64,000 bases of DNA from Aurantiacibacter arachoides (GTDB taxonomy: Bacteria > Pseudomonadota > Alphaproteobacteria > Sphingomonadales > Sphingomonadaceae). This document shows, piece after piece, positions 5,646 to 12,749 of the stretch. The DNA is taken from positions 1,860,001 to 1,924,000 of the forward strand of contig NZ_WTYH01000001.1 of NCBI RefSeq assembly GCF_009827335.1, written 5' to 3'. The notes beneath the pieces were generated by a model. That model was not told where the DNA came from. It saw nothing but the letters and a program-made list of their open reading frames with translations, and ran no database searches. How positions within the stretch are numbered: position 1 is the stretch's first letter; every line of letters begins with the position of its first letter. Position numbers and translations under genes: made by a program.

Positions 5646-6350
5646 ATGAAGCCCATCGCGCTATTGTCCACCCTTGCGCTCGCGCTGGCGGGCTGTTCCA
5701 TGCTGCCGGGGGGCGGAGATGGAAATGCGCGATCAGGCGAAGCCGGCCGCGCCGCCTCGGCGCCCGGCCCTCGCGTGGCCGCGCCACTGCCCGTGGCCAA
5801 CACGGCCGCCGGGGCACAATGTCTCAGCTCCCTGGGGCAAAGCGGCGTGCGCTTCGACCCCCTCCCCGACCAGTATCGCGCACAAGGTTGCAGCACGCTG
5901 GGGACCGTGCAGGTCCACGCGCTGCGTGGTGACAGCGGCGATCTAGGCATCAGCAACATCGGCCCCGTCACCTGCCCGGTCAGCGCGGCCTTTGCCGCCT
6001 GGGCACGGTTTGGCGTGGACCGCGCGGCGCGGCAGATCATGGGCAGCCCGCTGGCGGGTATCCAGACCATGGGCAGCTATGCGTGCCGCGATGTCGCGGG
6101 CACCGGTCGCCGGTCGGCCCACGCCACTGCAGCCGCGATCGACATCGGCGGCTTCGTGCTTGCCGATGGACGGCGTATCTCCGTCCTGACAGGATGGAAC
6201 GGCACGCCGCAGGAACGCGAATTCCTGCGCACGGTGCAACGCAGCGCCTGCCGCCGGTTCAACACCGTGCTTGGCCCGGATTACAACGCCGCCCACCACG
6301 ATCACCTGCACGTGGAAGGCGTGACCGACGGCAATTCCTATTGCCGTTAG
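5646..6350 (+). CDS. Extensin-like C-terminal domain lipoprotein
   Basis: A 234-residue envelope protein. The first 17 residues form a lipoprotein signal ending in the lipobox LAGC (Cys17), so it is probably an outer-membrane or periplasmic lipoprotein. After a low-complexity linker comes an extensin-like domain from about residue 55 to the end. SAHATAAAIDIGGF and HHDHLHVE resemble the zinc ligands of M15-type D,D-peptidases, suggesting cell-wall peptide hydrolysis, which is inference. Several paired cysteines (CPVSAAF, YACRDV, SACRRF, SYCR) suggest disulfides. An upstream in-frame start nine codons earlier is possible, but it would spoil the signal peptide. It converges on the LuxR gene, leaving only 21 bp. 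Confidence 0.85.
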   Translation: MKPIALLSTLALALAGCSMLPGGGDGNARSGEAGRAASAPGPRVAAPLPVANTAAGAQCLSSLGQSGVRFDPLPDQYRAQGCSTLGTVQVHALRGDSGDLGISNIGPVTCPVSAAFAAWARFGVDRAARQIMGSPLAGIQTMGSYACRDVAGTGRRSAHATAAAIDIGGFVLADGRRISVLTGWNGTPQEREFLRTVQRSACRRFNTVLGPDYNAAHHDHLHVEGVTDGNSYCR

Positions 6351-6371
6351 CCCAATCCTGGCTTCACGGGA

Positions 6372-7067
6372 TCAGTTGGCCCTCTGCGAGATGGGCGGTG
6401 GCCCGCTTATAGCAGGTTCGACGTCAGGGGAGCGATTGGCCCCCGCCGTGCGCTTTTCTCGGCGCCACTCCCCTGCCTCCAGCCGCAATCGCACTGCTTC
6501 TGCTGCATGGTTTGCGCCCAGCTTTCCCATCATGTTCGCGCGATGGATCTCCACCGTTCGGGGACTGATCTCCAGTTCGAGAGCGATCGCCTTGTTGGAA
6601 CATCCTTGCGCCAGCCAGTCGAGCACTTCGCGCTCTCGCTTGGACAAAGCGGAGATGCGATGGCGCGCGTCGATTAGCCGGCGGCGCGCCTCGGCGTGGC
6701 GACCAGCATCGCTGTGGACGTGTGCCACCATGCGGCGCAATCCCTCCTCGCTCAACGGCAGCGCGATGAAGTCGAGCGCACCGGCCTGGATTGCCACCAC
6801 GACCTCGTTTACGCCGGGTGCCTCGCAGGCGACGACCAGCGGCAGCCAGATGCCGTTGTCCGCTAGTTGATCCAGAAGTTGGCCGGTGCCGCCATCGACA
6901 GCATCATGCGAGGCGATGATGATCCCCTCGTTCGGGTGCTGATCGAGCAGTTCGGCAAGGTCCGAATAGACCTCGGCATGGTGTCCCATCGCGAATATTT
7001 TGTGGGATTGAGCGGCGCGGGAGCGGCTGTTACCGCCGACGATGTGCATGGTAAGGCGTTGATCCAT
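6372..7067 (-). CDS. LuxR-family regulator with degenerate receiver domain
   Basis: A 231-residue two-domain DNA-binding protein. Residues about 5-125 have receiver-like secondary structure, but the phosphorylation residues are missing. The acidic pair expected after strand 1 is replaced in MHIVGGNSR, the Asp region reads IIIASHDAVDGG, and the conserved Lys site reads FIALPLSEE. Residues about 137-200 are a LuxR/FixJ helix-turn-helix (LSKREREVLDWLAQGCSNKAIA, TVEIHRANMMGKL). It therefore probably works without phosphorylation. The last 25 residues are rich in Pro and Ser. It stands alone; downstream on the same strand nothing follows before the extensin gene on the other strand. Confidence 0.88.
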   Translation of the reverse strand: MDQRLTMHIVGGNSRSRAAQSHKIFAMGHHAEVYSDLAELLDQHPNEGIIIASHDAVDGGTGQLLDQLADNGIWLPLVVACEAPGVNEVVVAIQAGALDFIALPLSEEGLRRMVAHVHSDAGRHAEARRRLIDARHRISALSKREREVLDWLAQGCSNKAIALELEISPRTVEIHRANMMGKLGANHAAEAVRLRLEAGEWRREKRTAGANRSPDVEPAISGPPPISQRAN

Positions 7068-7262
7068 GCCATTGATTATGCCGTGAAAACGCGGATGAAT
7101 GCATTGCGTAGTTCTACGGGTTTAAACCTAGAACATGGCCTTCATCCAGCAGTGCATCCGTAAAACGCCATCGATAAGCACCTGATACTGGATCGCGAGC
7201 GGAGAAATACCGACCTGCCCGAAAGGCCGGCCTACGTAGAAATTCGGTACTTGGGCGATGGC

Positions 7263-8018
7263 CTAACCGGCCTCGTCGGGTTGGTAAAAGGAGTAGTCCG
7301 GCAGCGAATGGAACGCGTTGCGCAGCGCGTCGCTCCAGCTCGATGAGATCGCGTCGAAATAGGCATCGCTGTGCTCGATGCGCTTTTCGTGCGTGCGCTC
7401 GAACCCGTCGCGCGCGATGACCAGCAGGTCGAGCGGGAGGCCGACCGAAAGGTTCGCCTTCAAGGTGGAATCGAAGCTGACCATCAACAGCTTGACCGCA
7501 TCCTCGAAACTCATCTGGCGATCGTAGCCGCGGATGATGATGGGGCGGCCGTACTTTGTCTCGCCGATCTGGAAGAAAGGCGTATCGAAGCTGGCCTCGA
7601 TGAAGTTGCCTTCGGGGTAGATCATGAACAGGCGCGGTTCCATCCCGCGGATCTGGCCGGCCAGGATGATCGAGGCGGTGAAGCGCCCGCGCCCCCGCGC
7701 GCCGTTCGATTCCTGGGTTTCCTTCACGGTCTCGCGCAGCAGCTTGCCGGTTTCCGCCGCCACCTGGAACATCGTGTCCAGCCCCATCAGCGAGTGGGTG
7801 CGATCGCCGGGCGCCTTGGTCCGTTCCTCCAGCTTGCTGATTACCGCCTGGGTGGTGGCAAGGTTGCCTGCCGTCATCATCGAGATGATCCGTTCACCCG
7901 GCTTTGCCCAGGTGAACATCTTGCGAAACACCGAGATATTGTCGACGCCCGAATTGGTGCGGGTGTCGCTCATCAGCACGAGGCCCTTGTCGAGCACCAT
8001 TCCAACGCAATAGGTCAT
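7263..8018 (-). CDS. Anbu-type proteasome-like protease (peptidase T1 family)
   Basis: Anbu is the bacterial ancestral-beta-subunit homologue of the 20S proteasome and HslV. The 251-residue product starts MTYCVGMVLDKG. Removing Met leaves the N-terminal nucleophile Thr1. Asp17 (SDTRTNSG) and a Lys at position 32 (VFRKMF) match the Ntn-hydrolase catalytic set. The ATG at 8018 is fixed because Thr must be the second codon. It is the last gene of a minus-strand run behind ATP-grasp, alpha-E and transglutaminase genes, the neighbours with which Anbu genes typically occur. The natural substrate of this group is not established. HslV is excluded by the sequence around Thr1 and the absence of hslU. 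Confidence 0.92.
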   Translation of the reverse strand: MTYCVGMVLDKGLVLMSDTRTNSGVDNISVFRKMFTWAKPGERIISMMTAGNLATTQAVISKLEERTKAPGDRTHSLMGLDTMFQVAAETGKLLRETVKETQESNGARGRGRFTASIILAGQIRGMEPRLFMIYPEGNFIEASFDTPFFQIGETKYGRPIIIRGYDRQMSFEDAVKLLMVSFDSTLKANLSVGLPLDLLVIARDGFERTHEKRIEHSDAYFDAISSSWSDALRNAFHSLPDYSFYQPDEAG

Positions 8019-8064
8019 GGGGGTAGTCTACCTTCCGGCGGGCCTGTCACGCAAAGGCAGCGCG

Positions 8065-8880
8065 TTACTGTTCCACCATTTGCTGTTCTACGGCGAGATC
8101 GACCTGGAGATCCTCGGTCAACGCGCCGAAGGAAATGCCGGTTACCGGCGCGGCATCGGCATAATCGCGCCCGGTGGCGACACGCACGTAACGCGGATCG
8201 GGGCTGATGCCGTTCGAAATGTCGAAGCCCACCCAGCCCAGCCCATGCACGTGGGCCTCCGCCCAGGCGTGGGTGGCGTCCTGGTCCACCCGGTCGTTCA
8301 TCATCAGGTAGCCCGAGACATAGCGCGCCGGGATGTCGAGCGAGCGTGCCGCGGCGATGAAGATGTGCGCGTGATCCTGGCACACCCCCCTGCCGCAGGC
8401 CACGGCTTCCTCTCCGCTGGTCGTGACCTGCGTTGTGCCGACGCTGTATTCCACGTTGTCGCGGATCACCGCGGAAAGGTTGTGCAGCGTTTCCACCATG
8501 CCGCCGGTGCTGCGCTTCACCTGGCCGATCAGTGCCTTGATCTTTGGCCCCGGTCTGGTCAGCGCGGTGTGGCCCAGAAAGGCCCAGAGCGGCAGGTGCC
8601 CGGCGTGCTGGCCGATCACGCCGGCATTGTCCTCCGTCGCGACCGTGCCGTGGCAGCTCACCACGACCTCGCGCACGCCTTCCTCGAGACCGATCAGGGT
8701 GACGTGGTTGAAGTTCTGGTCGTCGTAGGTGAATTCCTCGCGCGCGCCCTGGTACTCCATGGTCCAGTCGAGGATCTTCTGGCCCTGCGTTTCCTTGGGC
8801 GTCAGCCGCAGGCGCTGGATGCCATGCGAAATCTCGTCATTGAAGCGATAGCGCGTGGTGTGGCGGATCGAGAGGCGCAT
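8065..8880 (-). CDS. Transglutaminase-like protein of the Anbu cluster
   Basis: A 271-residue protein with an N-terminal bacterial transglutaminase-like region (starting MRLSIRHTTRYRF) and a papain-fold core. The catalytic triad is Cys167 (GRGVCQDHAH), His204 (ATHAWAEAH) and Asp220 (GWVGFDISNG). No signal peptide is seen, so it is cytoplasmic. Such proteins may act as peptidases or amide-bond transferases; which applies here is unknown. The ATG at 8880 is preceded by AAGGGAG; the same frame stays open far upstream but only as an antisense-like shadow of the alpha-E gene. It lies 17 bp behind alpha-E and 46 bp before Anbu, so the genes are probably co-transcribed. Confidence 0.92.
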   Translation of the reverse strand: MRLSIRHTTRYRFNDEISHGIQRLRLTPKETQGQKILDWTMEYQGAREEFTYDDQNFNHVTLIGLEEGVREVVVSCHGTVATEDNAGVIGQHAGHLPLWAFLGHTALTRPGPKIKALIGQVKRSTGGMVETLHNLSAVIRDNVEYSVGTTQVTTSGEEAVACGRGVCQDHAHIFIAAARSLDIPARYVSGYLMMNDRVDQDATHAWAEAHVHGLGWVGFDISNGISPDPRYVRVATGRDYADAAPVTGISFGALTEDLQVDLAVEQQMVEQ

Positions 8881-8897
8881 GGTCTGTCTCCCTTTCC

Positions 8898-9842
8898 CTA
8901 GTTGGTGAACCGGTAATCTTGGGCGATGGCACCGGCGATGGCCTGGTTGCTGGCGATGAAATCGAGCAGGAACTGGTGCAGGCCCTGATCGAAAATGTCC
9001 TCCACGCTGCGATCGGCAAGCCGCATGTCCGCTTCCCGCATGCGCTGGTGCGCCTCGTTCTCCTCGCCATGCAACTGCGCCAGTTCGGTGAGGTTCTGCC
9101 GCATCATGCCGTAACAGAACACCAGGCTGCGGGGGAAACGCGGATCGAGGATCAGGAATTCGGCAATGGAACGCGCGTCCATGCGCCCGGCGTTGAGCCA
9201 GCGATAGGCGCGCTCGGCAGACAGCGAGCGGAGCACGTTGTCCCACTGCCCGCTGTCGAGCGCGGTGCCGACATAGCTGAGCGAGGGCAGCAGCAGGTAG
9301 TATTTGACATCGAGAATGCGCGAGGTGTTGTCGGCGCGTTCCAGAAAGGTGCCAAGCCGGGCGAAGCCATAGGTTTCGTTCCGCAGCATCGACCCGTGAG
9401 TGGCCCCGCGCGCCAGTGTGCTTTCCCGCCGGATCGCGCCGATGCACTGGTTCAGGTTGGCATCGCGCACCGGCTTGGCCAGCAGGTCGCGCAAGCTCAT
9501 CCAGCCCTCGTTGACCGCTTCCCACACCTCGCCCGTCAGCGCCGAGCGGCACGATCGGGCATTGGTCCGTGCGCGTTCCACCATGGACAGCACGCTTTCC
9601 GGATTGTGCCGGGACCGCAGCACGAAATCACTCACCTGCGCGCCGGTGTAGTCGCTGTGCACAAGCTCGTAGGCGCTGCGCAGGCCGAGCGTGGTAAGCA
9701 CCGACTTCCATTCCTGGCTCGCCACGTCGGGGCCGCGGGTCATGGTCATGCGATGGCCGGCCGCCAGCAGGCGCGCGGTATTCTCCGCCCGTTCGAGATA
9801 GCGGTACATCCAGAAGATGCCGTTGGCGACGCGGCCTAGCAT
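8898..9842 (-). CDS. Alpha-E domain protein
   Basis: A 314-residue all-alpha protein of the alpha-E family (formerly DUF403), recognised from its start MLGRVANGIFWMYRYLERAENTA and the conserved ETYGFARLGTFLERADNTSR. The repeated E-R-A-[ED]-N-T motifs at both places are the family hallmark. Its biochemical function is unknown. It regularly occurs next to, or fused with, circularly permuted ATP-grasp enzymes, so a scaffold or partner role in peptide ligation has been proposed. Here it follows the ATP-grasp gene by 12 bp and precedes the transglutaminase by 17 bp, suggesting fixed stoichiometry. It has no membrane segment or signal peptide. Confidence 0.92.
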   Translation of the reverse strand: MLGRVANGIFWMYRYLERAENTARLLAAGHRMTMTRGPDVASQEWKSVLTTLGLRSAYELVHSDYTGAQVSDFVLRSRHNPESVLSMVERARTNARSCRSALTGEVWEAVNEGWMSLRDLLAKPVRDANLNQCIGAIRRESTLARGATHGSMLRNETYGFARLGTFLERADNTSRILDVKYYLLLPSLSYVGTALDSGQWDNVLRSLSAERAYRWLNAGRMDARSIAEFLILDPRFPRSLVFCYGMMRQNLTELAQLHGEENEAHQRMREADMRLADRSVEDIFDQGLHQFLLDFIASNQAIAGAIAQDYRFTN

Positions 9843-9854
9843 GATGCGCGTGCC

Positions 9855-11297
9855 TCAGTCACCGAGCACCCAGGAGTCCTTGGTGCCGCCGCCCTGCGAG
9901 GAGTTGACCACCAGCGAACCCTTCTTCAGCGCCACCCGCGTCAGCCCGCCGGGCGTGATTTCCACCCCGTCGGGCGAACACAGCGCAAAGGGCCTGAGGT
10001 CGACATGGCGCGGGGCGAGGCCCTTGCGGGTGAAGATCGGGCAGGTCGACAGCGCCAGCGTGGGCTGGGCGATGTAGTTGTCGGGGTCCGCCACCAGTTT
10101 GAGGCGGAACTGCTCGATTTCCTTCTTGCTGGCGGTCGGGCCGATCAGCATGCCGTAACCGCCCGAACCGTGGACTTCCTTCACCACCAGCTCGTCAAGA
10201 TTGTCGAGCACGTATTTCAGCGCGTCGGGATCGGCGCAGCGATAGGTATCCACGTTGGGCAGCAGCGGCTTTTCGCCGGTGTAGAATTCCACGATGTCGG
10301 GCATGAACGAATAGATCGCCTTGTCATCCGCCACCCCGGTGCCCGGCGCATTGGCGATCGTCACCCGGCCCGCGCGGTACACGTCGAAGATGCCCGGCAC
10401 CCCCAGCACGCTGGCGGGATTGAAGGTGAGCGGATCGAGAAATTCGTCATCTACCCGGCGATAGATCACGTCGACCGGCTTGAACCCCACGGTCGTGCGC
10501 ATCTGCACCCGCCCGTCGACCACGCGAAGATCGCTGCCCTCCACCAGTTCAGCGCCCATCTGGTCGGCCAGGAAGGCGTGTTCGTAGTAGGCGGAATTGT
10601 AGATGCCCGGCGTCAGCACGGCGATGGTCGGCTTGCCCCGGGTCGATTCCGGCGCGCAGGCGGCCAGGCTGTTCGCCAGGCGGCGCGGATAGTCGGAAAC
10701 GGGGCGCACGTTCACCTTGCTGAACAGCTCGGGGAACATCGCCATCATCGTTTCGCGATTTTCCAGCATATAGCTGACGCCTGACGGCGTGCGGGCATTG
10801 TCCTCCAGCACCAGGAATTCTTCGGGCCCCGTGCGGACGAGATCGATGCCGGTGATATGGGTGTAGACTCCGCCCGGCGGCGTGAAGCCGACCATCTGCG
10901 GCAACCATGCCTTGTTGTGGCGGAACAGGCGTTCGGGCAGGCGGCCCGACCGAATGATCTCCTGCCGGTGATAGAGATCGTGCATGAAGGCGTTCAGCGC
11001 CCGGACCCGTTGCTCGATACCGCGCGATACCCGTCGCCATTCGCTGGCGGTGATGATGCGGGGCACCATGTCGAAGGGGATCAGCCGCTCCTCGGCATCG
11101 TCCTCTCCGTAGACGTTGAAGGTGATGCCGGTGCGGCGGAAGAAGCTTTCGGCCTCGAAATTCTTCGAGCGCATCCAGCCCTCGTCCTGCGCGGCGAGCC
11201 ATTGCTGGTAGCCCTCGTATGCCTCGCGCACCGAACCGTCGGGCGCATGCATCTCGTCGAATTTCGGCTCCTCGGTAACTTCCCTGACCCCTGGCAA
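9855..11297 (-). CDS. Circularly permuted ATP-grasp enzyme (type 2)
   Basis: A protein of about 480 residues with the circularly permuted ATP-grasp fold (DUF404/DUF407 group), predicted to form an amide or peptide bond with ATP hydrolysis. Recognisable blocks are FDEMHAPDGSVREAYEGY near the start, FMHDLYHRQEIIRSG, LEDNARTPSGVSYMLENR, NAPGTGVADDKAIYSFMP and KEVHGSGGYGML, and NSSQGGGTKDSWVL at the end. The start is uncertain. The frame opens with a TTG at 11297 without a clear ribosome site; the first ATG is at 11252, but it would cut the conserved FDEM motif. It is the first gene of the four-gene Anbu cluster. Substrates of these ligases are unknown. Confidence 0.9.
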   Translation of the reverse strand: MPGVREVTEEPKFDEMHAPDGSVREAYEGYQQWLAAQDEGWMRSKNFEAESFFRRTGITFNVYGEDDAEERLIPFDMVPRIITASEWRRVSRGIEQRVRALNAFMHDLYHRQEIIRSGRLPERLFRHNKAWLPQMVGFTPPGGVYTHITGIDLVRTGPEEFLVLEDNARTPSGVSYMLENRETMMAMFPELFSKVNVRPVSDYPRRLANSLAACAPESTRGKPTIAVLTPGIYNSAYYEHAFLADQMGAELVEGSDLRVVDGRVQMRTTVGFKPVDVIYRRVDDEFLDPLTFNPASVLGVPGIFDVYRAGRVTIANAPGTGVADDKAIYSFMPDIVEFYTGEKPLLPNVDTYRCADPDALKYVLDNLDELVVKEVHGSGGYGMLIGPTASKKEIEQFRLKLVADPDNYIAQPTLALSTCPIFTRKGLAPRHVDLRPFALCSPDGVEITPGGLTRVALKKGSLVVNSSQGGGTKDSWVLGD

Positions 11298-11364
11298 GAG
11301 TGTGACGCGGACTACCTACCGCCTCCGGATCGGGTGCGGCGCCTCCTCTCGGTATAAAGGATTG

Positions 11365-12162
11365 TCAGCTTTCCAGTTCCCGCACAAGCGCCATGATGCA
11401 GTCTGGCGAGGTGGGAAAGGTCAGGTGCGTGCAGCGCAGCGCCACCGCCCTGTCGCGTTCGCCCGGCACCCCGCTGGCCGCCCTGCGGGAAATCACGCCG
11501 TCGCGCGGAGACCAGAAGGCAACGGTCTCGACCGGCGGCTTGGCGCGCAGGTCGCTGGCGATGGGCGGGGCCTCCACCCGGTGCCCGGCCACCACCTGGT
11601 AGGTGCGCCAGACATGATTGGAATAGGGCGTGTGGCTGAAGGGCGATCCCATGGTGACCACCTTTGCCACGTGCTCGGGCACGATCTTCGCCACTTCGCG
11701 CGCAAAGACCCCGCCAAGGCTCCACCCGACCAGCACCACCTGCTGCCCGTAGCGTTCCCGCACGGCGGCCACGCGCGCGGCGATCAGGTTCAGCGTTTCC
11801 GGCGTAGGGCCCATGTTGTGCCCCAGCCCCCAACGCTTGACCTTGTGGCCGGCGCGTTCAAGCTGCTCCGCCATATACCGCATCCGCGTTGGACCCGTGG
11901 CGAAGCCGGGCAGCAGGATGACGACCTTGCGCGCCGCCGCAGCACGGATCGGCAGATCGGGGCGGAAGTGGATGCGGAAAGGCTCGGCCACGGCGCCAAG
12001 CTCGGCAAGAAACAGCCGCAGCGGCGGGACATGCGCCTCCGCAGGGGCAGTGCCGCGCAGCAGCCCGGCGCGACCTGCGAGCGCGGAACTTAACCCGGCA
12101 AGGCCGCGCTTGATGCGGGCGGATAACGGCTCCTCGTCGGTGTCGACCGGGAACAATGGCAT
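11365..12162 (-). CDS. Alpha/beta-fold hydrolase (lipase/esterase-like)
   Basis: A 265-residue alpha/beta hydrolase. The core starts near residue 80 (KVVILLPGFATGP). It carries the nucleophile elbow GWSLGG, a probable acid in FWSPRDGVIS and a His in RCTHLTF near the end, giving a complete Ser-Asp-His set. The N-terminal 75 residues are family-specific and not a signal peptide. The ATG at 12162 begins MPLFPVDTDEEP, and the long in-frame upstream extension is a shadow of the DUF3617 gene. Its start lies 2 bp from the stop of the upstream lipoprotein gene, and the ATP-grasp gene begins 67 bp downstream, all on one strand. The substrate is not predictable. Confidence 0.88.
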   Translation of the reverse strand: MPLFPVDTDEEPLSARIKRGLAGLSSALAGRAGLLRGTAPAEAHVPPLRLFLAELGAVAEPFRIHFRPDLPIRAAAARKVVILLPGFATGPTRMRYMAEQLERAGHKVKRWGLGHNMGPTPETLNLIAARVAAVRERYGQQVVLVGWSLGGVFAREVAKIVPEHVAKVVTMGSPFSHTPYSNHVWRTYQVVAGHRVEAPPIASDLRAKPPVETVAFWSPRDGVISRRAASGVPGERDRAVALRCTHLTFPTSPDCIMALVRELES

Positions 12163-12164
12163 GG

Positions 12165-12749
12165 TCAGCGGGCGGCCGGGCCGCTGTTGCCACGCGCCGC
12201 GGGAACGGCGTCGGGCGGAGGGGGAGCGGGGCAGGCGCCGATGCGTGCGTTCTCCACTCTGGTCGTCATTTCCAGGCGCTTGCCGGGCACGTCCGCGCCG
12301 GTCTGGACGACATGGTTTTCCAGGCTCGAGCGGGTCGATCCCGCGGTGGCGAGCATGGCGATGCGCGTGGCCGATCCGTCGGTGTTGTCGCAGGCGATGT
12401 CGGCGCCCATCCGGTCCCCCTCGACATCGAAGCGCGTGATCTGGCAGCTGCCCTCGCCCAGCGCCTCCACCATCGGGCGGAAACCGCGCGCGGCCTCCTC
12501 CGGCGAAACGCAATGCTCGCTTTGCGACTGCACGCCGACTCGCATGTTCTCCCGCGCCCAGGCCTCGTCGGCGGCGCCGGGATCGTCCATCGCGAAGCTG
12601 ACGAGGGTGTTGGTGGTGCGGTAGAGCCCCGGTTCGGGCCGGGTCAGCGTATCGGCCCGGGCGATAACCACCCGATCGTCCACGGGCGCATCACCCCCGC
12701 AGGCGGTGAGTATCGCGGAGCCTGCCGCGGCGAGCGCTATCAGCCGCAG
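12165..12749 (-). CDS. DUF3617-family lipoprotein, third copy, unusual start
   Basis: A DUF3617-type protein of about 194 residues that begins with a convincing lipoprotein signal ending in ILTAC. It has the family pattern PEPGLYRTTNT, a CVSPEEA block, and paired cysteines (GSCQITRF, DIACDN). Odd point: no ATG, GTG or TTG occurs in frame near the signal peptide. The candidates are CTG at 12749 (signal reads MRLIALAAAG) and CTG at 12743. The latter forms a CTGA overlap with the stop of the preceding copy at 12740-12742, so translational coupling is likely. The C-terminus is Pro- and Ala-rich. It has low similarity to the two upstream copies. Function of the family is unknown. Confidence 0.72.
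   Translation of the reverse strand: MRLIALAAAGSAILTACGGDAPVDDRVVIARADTLTRPEPGLYRTTNTLVSFAMDDPGAADEAWARENMRVGVQSQSEHCVSPEEAARGFRPMVEALGEGSCQITRFDVEGDRMGADIACDNTDGSATRIAMLATAGSTRSSLENHVVQTGADVPGKRLEMTTRVENARIGACPAPPPPDAVPAARGNSGPAAR

Follow-up and report, generated by a model that had tools for sequence, protein, structure and literature searches.

On the evidence of its sequence, an ordinary and intact copy of the Anbu operon, a widespread and published set of four bacterial genes, lies in a 64,000-nucleotide stretch of Aurantiacibacter arachoides DNA (contig NZ_WTYH01000001.1, positions 1,860,001 to 1,924,000; this whole stretch is the window, and coordinates refer to it). The operon occupies the minus strand at 7263-11297 and encodes, in transcription order, a circularly permuted ATP-grasp ligase, the protein Alpha-E, a transglutaminase-like protein (TG) and the proteasome-like protein Anbu. 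The explanation favoured here, held with a little less than even confidence, is that this intact operon serves the synthesis and cleavage of amides in the nitrogen economy of the cell. Comparison with other genomes supplies the nitrogen part of this explanation, although the control found there is missing at this copy. The features of the operon are as follows.

9855..11297, minus strand: circularly permuted type 2 ATP-grasp ligase gene (PF14403 2.5e-165, PF04174 4.9e-145; PDB 3n6x 3.3e-190)
8898..9842, minus strand: Alpha-E, 314 amino acids, predicted all-helical (PF04168 2.3e-85)
8065..8880, minus strand: transglutaminase-like protein, TG, 271 amino acids (PF08379 1.8e-17 and PF01841 3.1e-23)
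8019..8064, minus strand: spacer between TG and Anbu, 46 bases, the widest gap of the operon (from sequence)
7263..8018, minus strand: Anbu, proteasome-like N-terminal-threonine protein, 251 amino acids (PF00227 4.9e-11)
11253..11364, minus strand: upstream region of the operon, with no sigma54-like site at up to one mismatch (promoter scan and alignment)

The identities, order and strand of the four genes agree with an earlier note made from the sequence alone, and Pfam matches all four. The compact layout described there also holds, with gaps of 12 bases between ATP-grasp and Alpha-E, 17 between Alpha-E and TG, and 46 between TG and Anbu. PF14403 scores 550.4 bits in the ATP-grasp protein against a cut-off of 32, and PF04168 scores 287.3 bits in Alpha-E against 20.8. 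Anbu matches the solved Anbu entries 5loy (a designed Anbu; 5.9e-80), 5nyj (3.4e-70) and 5nyf (1.3e-69), the alignment to solved Anbu spanning its residues 1-242. It also matches the ‘Peptidase’ entries 5lox and 5nyw and, more weakly, a proteasome beta subunit (3h4p, 3.2e-07). The catalytic residues named in the note can be read from alignments: T2, D18 and K33 of Anbu, which are Thr1, Asp17 and Lys32 of the mature protein, are intact, as are C167, H204 and D220 of TG.

Conservation was counted for the ATP-grasp, Alpha-E and Anbu proteins of the loci fetched, with TG left out. The window departs from none of the columns that are at least 95% conserved among 184 ATP-grasps, 188 Alpha-Es and 138 Anbus. 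Of these three, the ATP-grasp shows the strongest constraint: 114 of about 468 aligned positions are at least 98% conserved, compared with 33 of 245 in Anbu, where Thr1, Asp17 and Lys32 all reach that level, and 19 of 312 in Alpha-E. Its ATP-site lysine, core loop glycines and NSSQGGG-T/S-KD motif are kept, position by position, in 217-223 of 223 unfused relatives. This invariance suggests that the enzyme has one fixed substrate. In Alpha-E, the charged residues at or above 98% are R14, E17, R18, R24, R92, R99, E168, R169, R175 and R238, which include two ER motifs (E17/R18 and E168/R169); these arginines and glutamates are read as a putative binding or active site. The Cys-His-Asp triad of TG is kept in all 131 TGs adjacent to Anbu. 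Among 35 TGs at loci that lack Anbu, it is kept in 29, four have lost the cysteine and two are incomplete at the motif. Since most Anbu-less TGs keep the triad too, a coupling of TG catalysis to Anbu is only suggestive. At four Anbu-less loci (L077, L078, L079 and L203) a TG without the catalytic cysteine stands beside Alpha-E, and ATP-grasp and Alpha-E are retained.

The association of the four genes recurs across the order, as the earlier note had supposed. A sample of 147 Sphingomonadales genomes was searched, and the surroundings of 60 of its 86 Alpha-E places were fetched; all 43 Anbu-bearing loci among these 60 hold all four genes together. Alpha-E occurs in 70 of the 147 genomes and an Anbu-model match (E<=1e-5) in 64, the match being clear (E<1e-90) in 59 and weak or partial in five. 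Clear Anbu is accompanied by Alpha-E in 58 of 59 genomes, and 12 of the 70 genomes with Alpha-E have no Anbu. The dependence seems to run in one direction: Anbu accompanies the ATP-grasp/Alpha-E cassette, which can apparently do without Anbu. The sole clear Anbu in a genome without Alpha-E is a solitary full-length gene with no cassette nearby (genome G113, L230:8001-8771). In another genome, G111, what is left of Anbu matches the C-terminal part of the model alone (L231:8730-9179). In a phylum-wide sample, 171 of 299 genomes contain Alpha-E, and 105 of 72,556 plasmid records hold a match, two of whose neighbourhoods were read (L272 and L273). The cassette on a Sphingomonas parapaucimobilis plasmid (L273) has no annotated Anbu within the stretch; near it are an annotated arginyltransferase (1785-2381) and a urea carboxylase-associated protein (9862-10659).

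The link to nitrogen comes from promoters outside the alphaproteobacteria. About 300 bases ahead of the ATP-grasp gene were scanned for sigma54-like sites by the rule TGGCAC-N5-TTGC, in which GG and GC had to match and no more than one mismatch was allowed. Such a site precedes 24 of 58 non-alphaproteobacterial operons, against 0.92 expected from first-order shuffles and 3 of 459 control genes of the same loci. The rule was fixed before a held-out set of 40 new operons from 39 genomes was scanned; 39 of these were testable, one contig having no ATP-grasp gene, and 19 carry the site, against 0.62 expected and 5 of 303 control open reading frames. Dyads resembling NtrC sites (at most two mismatches) occur at 15 of the 58 operons (1.65 expected) and 12 of the 39 held-out ones (0.75 expected). 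The dyad lies 68-76 bases upstream of the sigma54-like site in L187, L190, L202, L203 and L204, and overlaps it in L233. An unguided count of all 8-mers and spaced 4-mer pairs placed TGGC-N7-TTGC first in the 58 operons.

We take COG3484 to be the COG of Anbu. A 2025 survey of sigma54 regulons lists COG3484, a proteasome-type protease, among the COGs enriched in alpha-, beta- and gammaproteobacteria (PMC12316311). The sigma54 link of the Anbu COG is therefore partly in print; what is added here is the strength of that link ahead of the ATP-grasp gene, the NtrC-like sites next to it, and its lack in the lineage of the window. Among the papers listed in literature searches, none was seen that reports on sites upstream of the ATP-grasp gene or on NtrC sites across Anbu operons. 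Expression data agree with a nitrogen signal. In Pseudomonas putida, nitrogen limitation raises PP_2686-2688 11- to 37-fold, and the operon PP_2685-2688 is placed under NtrB/NtrC (PMC7801951). PP_2685 and PP_2688 are higher on nitrate than on ammonium (PMC8050072), and PP2685-2687 are raised in nitrogen limitation (PMC3325844). A Burkholderia cenocepacia cluster of ATP-grasp, DUF403 and TG genes depends on NtrC and sigma54 (PMC5491218), and co-variation with urea-metabolism domains in marine metagenomes speaks for the same role (PMC3597751). A paper on RpoN of Bradyrhizobium lists a predicted site 247 bases upstream of an ATP-grasp gene that may or may not be of the present family (PMC13207237).

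The direction of the chemistry is suggested by the ATP-grasp and its partner. Alpha-E adjoins the ATP-grasp gene in nearly all loci fetched for Alpha-E, and in a paralogous cassette the two are fused. The AlphaFold2 model of Alpha-E is helical, with a mean predicted local distance difference test score (pLDDT) of 93.0 and a predicted template modelling score (pTM) of 0.91. By sequence it has no significant solved homologue (best E 0.071), and fold comparison gave no convincing relative among the listed matches, though such lists exclude nothing. One fused relative was predicted as a single chain (pLDDT 84.1, pTM 0.83), and its ligase half resembles glutathione and glutathionylspermidine synthetases in fold. 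These synthetases join a carboxylate to an amine. From this likeness we infer that ATP-grasp with Alpha-E forms amides and that TG and Anbu cleave them. The fused chain is no clean model for the pair in the window, because its ligase motifs are eroded. In 37 fused proteins (for example L080-L091, L176:1015-3495 and L207:305-2707) the ATP-site loop is mostly not kept, 11 of 37 having its lysine, and of the C-terminal motif only a part is kept (GG-x-SKD), 17-20 of the 37 not being aligned there. These chains may be pseudo-ligases.

The favoured mechanism would run as follows. ATP-grasp together with Alpha-E would activate a carboxylate with ATP and join it to an amine, giving one conserved amide-linked product that the operon itself does not encode. 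TG would be a cysteine amidohydrolase and Anbu an N-terminal-threonine amidase or isopeptidase, each processing the product or taking it apart. In Yersinia bercovieri, the ATP-grasp partner of Anbu releases phosphate from ATP (PMC6376114), and all chemistry beyond that hydrolysis is inference. In many other Pseudomonadota, nitrogen limitation seems to switch the module on. Its most likely role is therefore in nitrogen economy, where amide bonds would serve to store, tag or salvage nitrogen, and not in general proteolysis. This alphaproteobacterium has the same enzyme set as found elsewhere, but no such promoter site is seen in it.

A zinc peptidase found at some cassettes bears on the role of TG. 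In a survey of 58 loci from 56 genomes of other Pseudomonadota classes, in which called genes of at least 70 amino acids were clustered, the only non-cassette neighbour to recur in at least four families, antisense reading frames of the cassette aside, is a zinc-ribbon metallopeptidase (PF15887 and PF10005). It lies near 14 of 223 cassettes, seven of them with Anbu. A same-strand TG of the operon type (hidden Markov model, HMM, score above 180) next to Alpha-E accompanies none of these 14, against 162 of the 209 others. When TG domains of any score within 5 kb are counted, the figures are 3 of 14 (all on the opposite strand) and 191 of 209, and outside the alphaproteobacteria 3 of 13 with the peptidase and 66 of 84 without it. 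That the peptidase occurs at cassettes without TG points to its being a substitute for TG, and to a peptidase-like character of TG itself. Strict exclusion of the two is disfavoured by the plasmid copy L272, where the zinc peptidase adjoins a large TG-family gene.

Several observations weigh against the nitrogen-economy explanation, beginning with the window itself. No sigma54-like site with up to one mismatch lies in the roughly 300 bases upstream of its operon, though RpoN is encoded in the genome. Alphaproteobacterial operons are altogether near background, at 2 of 48 in the order sample (both in one family; 0.52 expected) and 1 of 77 named loci (0.94 expected). Replacement by the zinc peptidase is not the sole path either, as 18 of the 84 non-alphaproteobacterial cassettes without it also have no TG domain within 5 kb. 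To our knowledge, no reaction of these proteins is known beyond the release of phosphate from ATP, and we know of no substrate for Anbu; the statement in the earlier note that none is established stands. The same note called the system probably active. Its residues are indeed intact, but activity does not follow from that, because Anbu of three species cleaved none of three proteasome substrates tried (PMC6376114).

The published data are likewise not uniform. The alphaproteobacterial enrichment given in the sigma54 survey (PMC12316311) is not shown by the operon counts above, and Fuchs et al. point to several conditions in which expression did not change (PMC5666114). In nitrogen-limited P. 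putida, an rpoN mutant still induced PP_2686-2688 14- to 20-fold (wild type 11- to 15-fold), urtA was also still induced 11-fold in that mutant, and PP_2685, the Anbu gene, changed 1.12-fold in the wild type, 4.81-fold in relA/spoT and 1.45-fold in rpoN (PMC7801951, Table 2). Because the mutant still induces these genes, their sigma54 dependence is not borne out in P. putida: either sigma54 is not needed for the induction in this strain, or the mutant data are unreliable. Finally, the locus counts are of related sequences and not of independent events, and a few contigs, judged by their length, appear twice under different accessions.

Since 2008 there has been debate on whether Anbu is an ancestor of the proteasome. 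A more far-reaching form of the favoured explanation would have the operon be a nitrogen-economy amide cycle and not a proto-proteasome. A single, near-universal substrate of ATP-grasp and Alpha-E would be built into an amide store or conjugate, from which TG (the zinc peptidase in other lineages) and Anbu would release it. Control would lie with sigma54 and NtrC in many beta- and gammaproteobacteria, and with another signal in the alphaproteobacteria, this genome included, and Anbu would be a cassette-dependent accessory amidase. Taken with all these parts, the proposal is doubtful.

Among the rival explanations, one keeps the amide chemistry and drops the nitrogen. The ligase would make a small metabolite, such as an amide resembling glutathionylspermidine, with TG and Anbu as its amidases and no specific role in nitrogen metabolism. 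We regard this as unlikely: the enrichment of sigma54- and NtrC-like sites outside the alphaproteobacteria argues against it, fold similarity names no substrate, and the fused relative has eroded ligase motifs.

A second rival is protein tagging in the manner of Pup or ubiquitin, with the ligase attaching a tag and Anbu degrading the tagged proteins or removing the tag. It draws on the proteasome fold of Anbu with its intact Thr/Asp/Lys site, and it was proposed in earlier work as summarised in PMC6376114. Against it, no small conserved gene was found to travel with the cassette: clustering of 5040 open reading frames of 25-110 amino acids, taken from 1.5 kb flanks and wide gaps, yielded no conserved candidate. 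Two clusters reach three families, and the eight members checked all lie antisense to TG-domain or Anbu genes. There is also no AAA+ partner on the genomic level according to PMC5666114, Anbu showed no peptidase activity on the substrates tried (PMC6376114), and cassettes persist without Anbu in 12 of 70 genomes. Tagging is thus quite unlikely. The weakest rival makes Anbu a protease of general degradation that turns over protein in starvation (as suggested in PMC5666114), the other three genes being only co-regulated with it. It fits the induction of the P. putida operon by nitrogen limitation, but is improbable given that clear Anbu occurs without Alpha-E in just 1 of 59 genomes, that every one of the 43 Anbu loci fetched from the order holds all four genes together, and that Anbu showed no activity on the proteasome substrates tried (PMC6376114).

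Adjacent upstream genes had been put forward in the earlier note as candidates for the missing substrate or partner. The genes that adjoin the operon on either side are not counted in the system.

11365..12114, minus strand: alpha/beta hydrolase, neighbour, local synteny only (PF00561 3.1e-10)
6372..7067, minus strand: LuxR/FixJ-like regulator, neighbour (PF00196 4e-22)

The hydrolase lies beside 24 of 43 Anbu operons, always with other genes of a local block (serA, the luxR-type gene or uvrB), and is missing from the other 19, where all four operon genes are present. Its restriction to one synteny block makes it a poor partner candidate, and the suggestion of an upstream partner is not supported. 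The luxR-type gene follows the same pattern, except that L065 keeps it without the hydrolase, and both genes were rejected as operon partners since they track the local block. The regulator scores 123.6 bits with the FixJ model, below the cut-off of 255; it is FixJ-like, and its N-terminal half is not recognised as a receiver domain. A linkage to urea transport was also considered, as an ABC cluster first seemed to recur in three families, and is not claimed after the loci were read. L174 alone resembles urtDE in our estimation; Pfam gives an ABC transporter there. Four Mesorhizobium loci (L117, L127, L129 and L131) encode, about 0.3-0.5 kb upstream of ATP-grasp, a 78-amino-acid protein that we take to be a stand-alone Lrp/AsnC ligand-binding domain.

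An operator is not evident upstream of the operon in an alignment of seven sequences, the window and six relatives. In the Sphingomonadales set, the top k-mers were rejected as an operator, since by eye they look like the coding end of the hydrolase. The palindrome TGCC-N9-GGCA occurs upstream of ATP-grasp in 17 of 77 named alphaproteobacterial operons (L108, L109, L115, L117, L119, L123, L127, L129, L131, L141, L146, L158, L159, L164, L166, L168 and L170), compared with 11 of 662 control genes, and in 1 of 48 operons of the order sample. Many of these loci are from Mesorhizobium, and most sites lie 115-125 bases upstream of the ATP-grasp HMM start. The palindrome is possibly the operator of some regulator.

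The ATP-grasp gene of the window has two candidate starts, TTG at 11297 (480 amino acids) and ATG at 11252 (465 amino acids). The public protein, P0001, has 465 amino acids and fits the latter. The relative L038 starts at an ATG 11 codons upstream of ATG 11252, a position that reads AGG in the window and ATC in L072. By protein similarity the genome groups with Aurantiacibacter, the best named ATP-grasp match being 93% identical. The gap between TG and Anbu is also the widest by median in relatives, measured between HMM ends (43 bases in alphaproteobacteria, n=109; 98.5 in others, n=18). A terminator scan of 6300-12700 gave 4 sites against 4.1 expected, and the sole one on the minus strand is inside the TG gene. 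The genome, a single contig of 2.94 Mb, encodes one Alpha-E, three Transglut_core proteins and two proteasome-family genes.

The window adds one ordinary copy, and the value lies in the comparative nitrogen signal, which is partly in print, which one mutant data set contradicts and which does not extend to this genome's own promoter. For the function of Anbu, the comparison provides a growth condition, nitrogen limitation, and a model strain, P. putida KT2440. It also yields predictions, namely one conserved product that depends on ATP-grasp, a TG that is peptidase-like and not cross-linking, and an Anbu that acts downstream. Together with the growth condition, these reduce the open question of Anbu to a small set of experiments.

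The operon and the idea that it makes and breaks amides are already published, and the copy in the window compares closely with known systems. The Anbu operon of Yersinia bercovieri has the same conserved gene order and Anbu catalytic residues (PMC6376114). P. putida PP_2685-2688 encode proteasome-like, transglutaminase, hypothetical and circularly permuted ATP-grasp proteins, as the window does, and the hypothetical protein, PP_2687, would be Alpha-E; that operon is nitrogen-responsive and assigned to NtrB/NtrC, whereas the window has no sigma54-like site. B. cenocepacia I35_5080-83 (DUF404/407, DUF403, TG and a large TG protein) shares the ATP-grasp, Alpha-E and TG families, but its fourth listed gene encodes a large TG-domain protein instead of Anbu, and it depends on NtrC and sigma54 (PMC5491218). 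The fused ATP-grasp::Alpha-E cassette (L080-L091, L176 and others) carries the same Pfam families in a single chain; it differs in having no Anbu at L080-L091 and a DUF2126 protein alongside, which at L176 directly adjoins it. HslV shares the proteasome-family fold of Anbu, and in this genome it is probably the second proteasome-family gene, a separate one outside the operon (G000:C1:2214274-2214792).

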